A DNA stretch of 64,000 bases, from the NCBI RefSeq assembly GCF_002283365.1, contig NZ_MQWD01000001.1, positions 1,621,154-1,685,153 of the forward strand, read 5' to 3'. The stretch is from Rubrivirga marina. GTDB taxonomy: Bacteria > Bacteroidota > Rhodothermia > Rhodothermales > Rubricoccaceae. Shown here piece by piece: positions 34,325 through 36,845 of this stretch; positions within the stretch are counted from its first letter, which is position 1, and each line of letters begins with the position of its first letter. Made by a program: the position numbers and the translations under genes. A model generated the notes under the pieces. That model saw only the letters and a program-made list of their open reading frames with translations. It searched no databases and was not told the DNA's origin.

Positions 34325-34735
34325 ATGGCTGACTCCCTGCTCGTCGAGATCGTCTCCCCGGACCGCGCGGCCTACCGTGGCGAGGCCCGGGCCTTCCGCG
34401 CCCCCGGCGTTGAGGGCTCGTTCGAGGTCCTCCGCGGCCACGCCCCGCTGCTGGCCGCGACCCAGGTCGGGACCGTGACGGTCACCACGCTGAACGGCGA
34501 CCGCGTCCAGTTCGCCACGTCCGGCGGGTTCGTCGAGGTCCTCGACGACCACGTCATCATGCTGGCCGAGACGGCCGAGCCGGCCGGCGAGATCGACGTC
34601 GAGCGCGCTCGTGCCGCCGAGGAGACCGCCGCCGAGCGGCTCGCCGCGGCCACGACACCCGAGGAGCGGGCCCAGATCGAGGCCGAGCGCGACCGCGCGC
34701 GGAACCGGCTCCGCACCGCGATGGGCCAGGTCTGA
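34325..34735 (+). CDS. atpC: F0F1 ATP synthase epsilon subunit
   Basis: A 136-residue protein: N-terminal beta-sandwich (LLVEIVSPDRAAYRGEARAFRAPGVEGSFEVLRGHAPLLAA) and C-terminal helical hairpin starting about residue 88 (IDVERARAAEETAAERLAA). It couples rotation and can inhibit ATP hydrolysis. It follows atpD after a hairpin-forming palindromic element. Confidence 0.95.
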   Translation: MADSLLVEIVSPDRAAYRGEARAFRAPGVEGSFEVLRGHAPLLAATQVGTVTVTTLNGDRVQFATSGGFVEVLDDHVIMLAETAEPAGEIDVERARAAEETAAERLAAATTPEERAQIEAERDRARNRLRTAMGQV

Positions 34736-34774
34736 CGGCTCCCGGCTAACGGCCTGAGCCTTCATGAAGGGTTC

Positions 34775-34805
34775 TTGCCGCGCCCCCCGTGCCGGCGTAC
34801 CTTGG
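34775..34805 (+). promoter_or_regulatory. Promoter for a candidate small RNA
   Basis: TTG at 34775-34777, 20 bases, then TACCTTGG at 34798-34805: the best -33/-7 match in the window. A 12-base palindrome CCTTCATGAAGG (34759-34770) lies just upstream and could be an operator. Confidence 0.6.
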
Positions 34806-34810
34806 CACTC

Positions 34811-34924
34811 CGACACCGGCCGACACACTGGCCAACGAATCGGGTTGAGCACGCCCAGCCCCGCCCTCCAGGGCGAGCTCCCCGACCGAGCGTCCGACGG
34901 GTTTCCGTCGGGCGCTCTCTTTTT
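34811..34924 (+). ncRNA. Candidate structured small RNA downstream of atpC
   Basis: About 114 bases between a good promoter and a strong terminator with no plausible protein. Predicted pairings by eye: GGCC/GGCC at 34818-34821 and 34830-34833; an outer stem TCGGG(TT)GAGC at 34840-34850 with GCTCCCCGA at 34877-34885; inside it CGCCC-TCCA-GGGCG at 34862-34875; then the terminator stem. It does not match the SRP RNA, 6S RNA, tmRNA or RNase P RNA signatures I know. The 5' end is estimated from the -7 box. An alternative is a standalone attenuated leader without a downstream gene, as the next gene is on the other strand. Confidence 0.55.
34888..34924 (+). terminator. Intrinsic terminator of the small RNA unit
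   Basis: A 13-pair stem GAGCGTCCGACGG/CCGTCGGGCGCTC with one G-U pair and a GTTT loop, followed by TCTTTTT. It may also catch atpC read-through. Confidence 0.9.
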
Positions 34925-34980: not shown

Positions 34981-35463
34981 TCAGCGCTCGAACGTCAGGC
35001 GCGTGCCGGAGGCGAGGAGCGGGAACGAGAGCCCGTTCGAGCCGCCGCCGTTGAACACGAGCTTGGCGTCGGCGCGCTGGACGAGGTAGACCATCCGGTC
35101 GCCCTCCAGGCTCTCGACCCGGCCGTAGAGGTCGACGTAGACGGTCCCCTCGGCGACCGACATCGACCACAGCTTGACGTCGAAGCCCTGCGGGTCGTCC
35201 GGGTCGAGCGAGTAGTCGCTTCCGAACGCGCCGCGCATCTCGGGGAACTGGCTGTTGCCCGTCGCGAGGACGCCGTAGCCGCTCCGGTCCACAAAGCCTG
35301 CGGCGATCTCCCACCGCCCGCTGGCGGCCTCGCCATTCCGCGACACGAGTTGCCAATCGCCGGGCAGGTCGCAGCCGACGTCGTCGTAGAGGCAGTCGTC
35401 GTAGAGGTAGTCGCAGCCGCCGAGGACAAGCGCGGCGAGGATGAGGAGGGGGAGCCGGGTCAT
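34981..35463 (-). CDS. Putative lipoprotein
   Basis: A 160-residue protein with signal peptide and lipobox LGGCD (Cys ~16), followed by a tyrosine/aspartate/cysteine-rich stretch YLYDDCLYDDVGCDLPG. The rest looks like a lipocalin-like or small beta-barrel fold (GDWQLVSRNG start, repeated strands with VYVDLYGRVESLEGDRMVYLVQ). No family recognised. ATG at 35463 overlaps the upstream TGA by 4 bases (ATGA), so it is translationally coupled to the preceding lipoprotein; they may be paralogues of related fold. Confidence 0.75.
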   Translation of the reverse strand: MTRLPLLILAALVLGGCDYLYDDCLYDDVGCDLPGDWQLVSRNGEAASGRWEIAAGFVDRSGYGVLATGNSQFPEMRGAFGSDYSLDPDDPQGFDVKLWSMSVAEGTVYVDLYGRVESLEGDRMVYLVQRADAKLVFNGGGSNGLSFPLLASGTRLTFER

Positions 35464-35951
35464 CGGGTCAGGGTCCAAAGCGTGCGGACGGCGTCGGCGC
35501 CGTCGAAGGCGTAGAAGGCCCAGACCTGTCGGCTGGCGCTGTCCTCCTCAATCGTCGCCACCACGTCGTCGACGATGTTTGCGCCCTCGCCGATGAAGAT
35601 GAGGCGGCTCGCGTCGCCGTCGGCCGTGATCACCGAGCAGTCGCGGAAGCCCCGCGGATTGGCCGGGTCGTAGGCGACCGCGACGCGGTCGTCCTCCCCG
35701 GCGTTCTCGATGGTGGTCCGGTTGCACTCGATCACCCGTCCGACCTCGTAGGCGTCGACGCGCGGCGTGCCCTCGGCGGTGACGGATCCATCGGAGCGGA
35801 CGCGTTCGGTGGTGACGGTTCGCGTCCAGACCCCGTCGAGGCGAGACATGAGCGCGGCGCCGCCGGAGCCGGTCGTCGTGAACGTGTCGCAGCCGGCGAG
35901 GAGAAGGACGGCGAGCGCGACGACGAGGGGGCGGCCCGAGAGCGGAGACAT
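35460..35951 (-). CDS. Putative lipoprotein
   Basis: A 163-residue protein. Signal with lipobox LLAGCDTF (Cys ~19). Mature part begins LDGVWTRTVTTERVR, again a lipocalin-like opening (GxW), then strands and an acidic NIVDDVVATIEEDSASRQVWAFYAF. Unrecognised. It follows the outer-membrane barrel gene by 10 bases and overlaps the next lipoprotein start by 4 bases. The three form a probable envelope operon. An upstream longer frame exists but would run through the barrel gene; ATG at 35951 gives the proper signal peptide. Confidence 0.75.
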   Translation of the reverse strand: MSPLSGRPLVVALAVLLLAGCDTFTTTGSGGAALMSRLDGVWTRTVTTERVRSDGSVTAEGTPRVDAYEVGRVIECNRTTIENAGEDDRVAVAYDPANPRGFRDCSVITADGDASRLIFIGEGANIVDDVVATIEEDSASRQVWAFYAFDGADAVRTLWTLTR

Positions 35952-35961
35952 CGACGTGGGG

Positions 35962-36738
35962 TCAGAAGAGGCGTAGCTCGACGCCGACCTGCAGGCGCAG
36001 GCCGACGTAGTCGCGGTCGGAGACGGCCGCGCCGTCGTCGAGGCCGTTGGGGTCGGCGAGGTAGCGGCCGAAGTCGCGCGGGAGGTAGGTCTTCCCGTTG
36101 CGGCTGGCGTCGAAGTCGGTGGCCGGCAGCCGGTCCTCCCCGAACGTCTCGACGGGGAACAGGAGGCGGACCGGGACGAACACGCGGTCGCCGACGGCAA
36201 GCCCCCCCAGCACGCCGACCTCGAAGTAGGTCGACGACGCCGTGTAGACGCCGTTGAAGACGAACTCCGAGCCGAGGCTCTCTGACCCGTCCGGGTACGT
36301 CGTGGCGACCTCGACGCGGACCCCGCGAAACATCCCGCCGAACGATCCGCCGACCACGAGCGGTCCGAGTTGGCCCGTCAGGTCGATCGTGACGACGTGG
36401 TCGAGCGTCCGCGCTTGGACGCGGTTGCCGCGTCCGTTCGAGAACGCCGACGCCTCGTCGGACGTCGCGCGGCCGACTTGGTAGGCGAACCCGGCGCCGA
36501 GGCCGCCGCCCCCGATCCGGACCGCCGCCCCGAGGGCCGGGTGCGTGTGCTCGCCGGGCAGGAAGTCGACGGGCGCGTCGAGTACGGTCGAGAAGACGTC
36601 GCTGTAGGTCTCGCCGAGGAGCGCGAGGCGGTCGCCGTCGAACTGTGTCCTCGAGAAGGCGCCGGTGAGGTAGAGGCCCGACGGCTGCGCCGAGGCGGAG
36701 GCGGCCAGCAGAAGGAGGGCGAGGGGTCGGAGGCGCAT
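35962..36738 (-). CDS. Putative outer-membrane beta-barrel protein
   Basis: A 258-residue exported protein with signal peptide (RPLALLLLAASASAQ, cut ~18) and repeated amphipathic strands, for example AGFAYQVGRATSD, HVVTIDLTGQLGPLVVGGSFGGMFRGVRVEVATTYPDG and VGLRLQVGVELRLF, ending in phenylalanine as outer-membrane barrels do. About 10-12 strands plausible. No specific family recognised. First gene of a three-gene unit with two lipoproteins, divergent from ftsX. Confidence 0.75.
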   Translation of the reverse strand: MRLRPLALLLLAASASAQPSGLYLTGAFSRTQFDGDRLALLGETYSDVFSTVLDAPVDFLPGEHTHPALGAAVRIGGGGLGAGFAYQVGRATSDEASAFSNGRGNRVQARTLDHVVTIDLTGQLGPLVVGGSFGGMFRGVRVEVATTYPDGSESLGSEFVFNGVYTASSTYFEVGVLGGLAVGDRVFVPVRLLFPVETFGEDRLPATDFDASRNGKTYLPRDFGRYLADPNGLDDGAAVSDRDYVGLRLQVGVELRLF

Positions 36739-36837: not shown

Positions 36838-36845
36838 TAGTTTGC
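36838..36845 (+). promoter_or_regulatory. Candidate -7 box for ftsX
   Basis: TAGTTTGC, the closest match to the Bacteroidota TAnnTTTG among those seen, first base 30 bases before the GTG start. Confidence 0.5.

Follow-up and report, generated by a model that had tools for sequence, protein, structure and literature searches.

Organization of the locus downstream of atpC

The window analyzed is a 64,000-nucleotide stretch of the Rubrivirga marina genome, in which the spacer that follows atpC carries the parts of a candidate small RNA gene. From upstream to downstream, the locus contains the following features.

34325..34735, + strand: atpC, ATP synthase epsilon subunit (Pfam PF02823, 4.5e-21, and PF00401), the conserved upstream neighbor
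34775..34777, + strand: −33-like element TTG, within TTCTTG
34798..34804, + strand: −7 box TACCTTG, of the Bacteroidota type (TAnnTTTG)
34809..34839, + strand: variable 5′ leader with a small hairpin, GGCCG/TGGCC (34818-34822/34829-34833)
34840..34885, + strand: core hairpin, recognized from identity in relatives, changes on both sides of pairs and fold; outer stem 34840-34844/34881-34885, UU bulge 34845-34846, stem 34847-34850/34877-34880, inner stem 34852-34856/34871-34875, open loop 34857-34870 (AGCCCCGCCCTCCA)
34888..34924, + strand: intrinsic terminator with a 13-pair stem (34888-34900/34905-34917), loop GTTT and tail TCTTTTT
34981..35478, − strand: gene for a small lipoprotein-like protein (from the list of open reading frames), the next gene here, outside the RNA

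Nearly every genome of the order has an atpC; for the copy here, the nearest named record comes from a Rubrivirga sp. MAG (94% identical). The lipoprotein-like protein has no match in Pfam. The syntenic place was retrieved through atpC from nine genomes of the family and 99 genomes of the order. Four of the family genomes are Rubrivirga (G000, which is the source genome, G006, G007, and G008), and G004 and G005 belong to a second genus. The gene that follows the RNA is not the same throughout: in G006, alignment shows the antisense lipoprotein-like gene in synteny; G007 and G008 have ftsX, on the strand of the RNA and within about 200 bases of it; and G004 and G005 have a DUF4870-like gene (named from sequence), also on the RNA strand. 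In the source genome, two opposite-strand genes without a Pfam match (34981-36200) separate the RNA from ftsX; this stretch aligns in G006, and the two genes are absent from G007 and G008, where ftsX comes directly after the RNA. A TAGTTTG box at 36838-36844, about 30 bases upstream of ftsX (36868), is kept in G007 and reads TACCTTTG in G008.

The predicted promoter consists of the TTG at 34775-34777, a 20-base gap, and TACCTTGG at 34798-34805. For the primary sigma factor of Bacteroides, TAnnTTTG at −7 and TTTG near −33 are cited in a study of Bacteroides thetaiotaomicron (PMC7366714). The first-pass annotation, made from the sequence by itself, had singled out this site as the best promoter match of the window; TACCTTG does occur just once in the window, but TTG-N20-TAnnTTG occurs twice (13468 and 34775), so that the site is one of the two best. 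A 12-base palindrome named in the same annotation exists at 34759-34770, but the window contains 59 such palindromes in total and no relative has kept this one intact. In 464 kb of the source genome, the 120 bases upstream of a gene contain TAnnTTG in 8 of 153 cases, compared with 1 of 153 matched stretches inside genes.

All six homologues carry the −7 box, in G005 as the variant TACATTG. It lies 6–8 bases before the core in four genomes, where the RNA would therefore start almost at the hairpin, and 36 bases before it in two. The 5′ leader, a 29-base insertion with a small hairpin in the gap between promoter and core, is present only in the source genome and G007, and the length of the RNA has thus changed within the genus; a G-U pair of the leader hairpin (34818-34822/34829-34833) is a G-C pair in G007. 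We infer a transcript start near 34809-34811 and predict an RNA of about 114–116 nt here and about 85–105 nt in relatives. The −33 TTG is found at the 20-base gap in three of the four Rubrivirga genomes (TTC in G007) and not at such a distance in the second genus, where the −7 box is instead preceded, 34 bases upstream, by the conserved TTCTTCAC, possibly an activator site.

Fold, conservation, and distribution of the RNA

The segment 34811-34924 folds with −58.3 kcal/mol (z = −4.95, with 0 of 200 shuffles as good), in line with the ~114-base fold that had been proposed, and just 1.7% of random windows of this GC-rich sequence are as stable as the 85 bases from 34840 to 34924. The 46-base core hairpin by itself is not exceptional, its stability being equaled or exceeded by 9% of random windows of that length, and the case for a small RNA thus rests on comparison and not on energy. 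The core fold has −22.1 kcal/mol and a pairing probability of about 98%. Its outer stem (34840-34850/34877-34885) and the 13-pair terminator with a U-tract had both been predicted correctly. The inner hairpin proposed at 34862-34875 turns out to be a competing fold of about 1% probability (−18.1 versus −22.1 kcal/mol), whose partner sequence is absent in the second genus; pairing of 34852-34856 with 34871-34875 is the version backed by the relatives. Folded singly, the five distinct sequences all have the large-loop hairpin as the minimum-energy fold (z −4.0 to −8.1), from which the centroid fold of G008 differs, and the loop is unpaired in all six homologues.

A plain alignment of the six sequences put the loop in the wrong place, and the five distinct sequences were therefore aligned by hand on the structure, with N as padding. 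In this structural alignment, whose counts lean towards the structure, 91.5% of cells are paired, compared with 36–52% when the partners are slid. Four pairs have changes on both sides, three of them clear, in this hand-made alignment of five distinct sequences, a number that allows few independent changes and in which the invariant lower stems are uninformative on pairing. Pairing is kept between the genera in the inner stem, where columns 19/49 and 22/46 change from C-G to U-A, and in the terminator, where column 82/91 changes from G-C to A-U. The first-pass annotation had staked its reading on conserved pairings in relatives, and such both-side changes are how the pairings have been kept. 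The terminator is paired in 100% of cells over the five distinct sequences, and its 13-pair stem is found in all six homologues. Two of its wobbles (U-G and G-U) would be A-C mismatches on the opposite strand, which favors the + strand as the transcribed one.

At the level of sequence, the core (34840-34885) is identical at 46 of 46 positions in both G006 and G007 and at 44 of 46 in G008, and the terminator at 36 of 37 in G006. Between the source genome and G006, identity is 67% at third codon positions of atpC, 44% in the upstream spacer, and 74% in the downstream gene; for G008, third codon positions of atpC are 69% identical. The RNA is therefore far more constrained than the silent positions of the adjoining atpC. 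The two genera share without change the stem sequences CGGGUYGAGC/GCUCCCCG and GAGCGUCC and the loop motif CC-CCGCCCU (written also CC-CCGCCCUC); as a whole, the open loop of Rubrivirga reads AGCCCCGCCCUCCA, and that of the second genus reads AACCGCCGCCCUCC(C). A small protein was considered and rejected. A TTG at the core could serve as its start, but G008 and G005 have TCG instead and the frame is broken by indels, so that this is not a coding gene.

The element follows atpC in four of four Rubrivirga genomes and in two of two genomes examined from the second genus. Covariance models built from the homologues, a check suggested in the first-pass annotation for syntenic atpC-downstream regions, found one copy per genome in all six carriers, and only ordinary terminators both in the 245 remaining genomes of the class and in a set of 395 from across the phylum. 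Weak model matches that might have been further copies in the genome or class were likewise ordinary terminators without the core. In the third genus (G002 and G003), just a short terminator follows atpC; the search of the nine family genomes gave no atpC match in G001; and most atpC genes of the order are without the RNA core. As comparison of these genomes shows, the predicted product is a non-coding two-hairpin RNA that is under strong purifying selection, comes from a single-copy gene on the + strand, and does not depend on its neighbors. The locus would thus represent a new and lineage-restricted small RNA gene family that is real and ordinary in kind.

Relation to described RNAs and to translation starts

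No family of Rfam 15 reaches its gathering threshold for the RNA, and 6S RNA (RF00013, gathering score 46.4 bits) has no match in the source genome; the first-pass annotation had recognized no housekeeping RNA signature. The best sub-threshold match, suhB/mmgR (RF00519), is at chance level, its 18.9 bits falling short of the gathering score (41); a small hairpin, a CUCCC stretch, and a terminator are common to both, whereas the first hairpin is paired otherwise. In the literature, no small RNA was found that had been described from this lineage (Rubrivirga, Rhodothermus, Salinibacter) or from downstream of atpC.

Two described groups are reminiscent of the RNA. The alpha-r14 or “cuckoo” sRNAs of Alphaproteobacteria (NfeR1) are also small RNAs with a C/U-rich motif open in a hairpin loop; they act in trans through anti-Shine-Dalgarno-like motifs, with the C-rich loop as the seed, and fold into three hairpins with an identical CCUCCUCCC motif in each loop (PMC10746234). 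The RNA described here, in contrast, has a single hairpin and loop (CCGCCCUCC) and comes from another phylum and from a genome without Shine-Dalgarno motifs; with the loop AGCCCCGCCCUCCA in place of CCUCCUCCC in three hairpins, it does not belong to that family. GibS and other intergenic sRNAs of B. thetaiotaomicron are conserved in their genus, have their own promoter and terminator, and occur in a bacterium without Hfq (PMC7366714). The likeness extends to an Hfq-less bacterium of the wider Bacteroidota and to an intergenic RNA with its own promoter and terminator (predicted here), but by description GibS is set apart by an open 5′ seed and low GC, whereas the RNA here is almost wholly folded, with a seed proposed in its loop. 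Hfq (PF17209) is absent from the nine family genomes, the controls being positive, and no 6S RNA is detectable by Rfam in these nine genomes. Since the genome is without Hfq, the RNA does not qualify as an Hfq-dependent sRNA; of the features by which an intergenic sRNA is judged, it has its own predicted promoter, its own terminator, and a conserved non-coding structure with compensatory changes.

A CCUCC loop brings to mind the Shine-Dalgarno sequence. In the window and further loci of the source genome, GGAGG precedes 4 of 153 starts, compared with 9 in the control region, in a test that is rough because each start was taken as the first ATG of an open frame. The region from −20 to −6 before the starts of these 153 genes has C at about 0.48 and G at about 0.24, and CCCC occurs within −20 to −5 of 57 of the 153 starts, compared with 17 in the control region. 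Rubrivirga thus does not appear to use Shine-Dalgarno motifs, which agrees with the lack of the motif reported for Rhodothermus and Salinibacter (PMC3155529). As the genes here are without the motif, ordinary Shine-Dalgarno masking by the loop is unlikely, and general anti-Shine-Dalgarno masking was set aside with GGAGG being rarer before starts than in the control. The complement of the loop occurs before ATG about twice as often as a reversed-pattern control in four of five genomes. Among the readable ones of 30 matches fetched, however, most of the ATGs are internal to genes, in Glu-Gly-Gly codons, so that the excess says nothing about targets; the search for the loop complement before ATG in the five genomes found no target.

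Proposed function and rival readings

An independent small RNA gene after atpC, as first proposed, is supported by synteny, kept pairings, and independence from neighbors, and on the genomic comparison we consider it highly probable. In the mechanism that we favor, a promoter of the sigma-A type would drive transcription of the stand-alone gene, the intrinsic terminator would end the RNA, and the RNA would act in trans without Hfq. The exposed C-rich loop would serve as a seed for base pairing with G-rich segments in a single mRNA or a small number of them, altering their translation or decay, and the GC-rich stems would both protect the RNA and prevent the loop from closing. A loop acting as a seed would be aimed at individual G-rich sites rather than at ribosome binding sites as a class. 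This antisense loop mechanism is held tentatively, at a weight approaching but not reaching even, and the gene and the mechanism taken together carry that same weight.

The invariant stems would also fit protein binding. A decoy RNA that titrates a protein binding C-rich strands (an RNA-binding or ribosomal factor), with the stems as a recognized scaffold, is rather unlikely: the invariant stem sequences between genera exceed what pairing needs and the loop shares its C-richness with the G-poor regions ahead of start codons, yet the RNA has a single copy of the loop. Titrating RNAs known so far often bear many sites. That the loop specifically mimics start regions and titrates an initiation factor or RNA-binding protein, as a device peculiar to the Rubricoccaceae, is improbable to a much greater degree. 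Hardly more probable than such mimicry is a processed 3′ UTR or terminator of the atp operon, which would stabilize or end the atpD-atpC mRNA. The RNA always lies after atpC, and no other terminator separates the two in the source genome; in G004 and G005, however, atpC has its own terminator ahead of the RNA promoter, the −7 box keeps its distance from the core in four genomes, and the core is missing behind most atpC genes of the order.

A leader, attenuator, or riboswitch of the downstream gene is very improbable, as the first-pass annotation had held. It could appeal to the same-strand ftsX (G007 and G008) or DUF4870-like gene (G004 and G005), but the downstream gene differs in kind and orientation between lineages and is antisense here, ftsX is preceded at a short distance by a TAGTTTG/TACCTTTG box of its own, and no fold was seen to compete with the strong terminator. 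We give equally little credence to a 6S RNA that has diverged strongly and binds RNA polymerase; its place is vacant, with none recognized in the nine family genomes, but 6S RNA is a long rod with a central bubble, whereas this RNA is too short, is without a central bubble between long stems, ends in an intrinsic terminator, and is restricted to two genera. Least credible of all is a chance structure in a GC-rich spacer. The modest standing of the core hairpin among random windows would allow it, but six syntenic, near-identical cores amid diverged flanks and double changes that keep the pairs refute it.

An independent gene for a probably regulatory small RNA would be found here in a lineage without Hfq, a recognizable 6S RNA, or Shine-Dalgarno motifs, in which a slowly evolving RNA offers a handle on the regulation of mRNA. 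A reading of raw sequence has in this case led to a real RNA family that is missing from Rfam. If mimicry of start regions were true, the RNA would be a global regulator of translation in bacteria that initiate without Shine-Dalgarno pairing.
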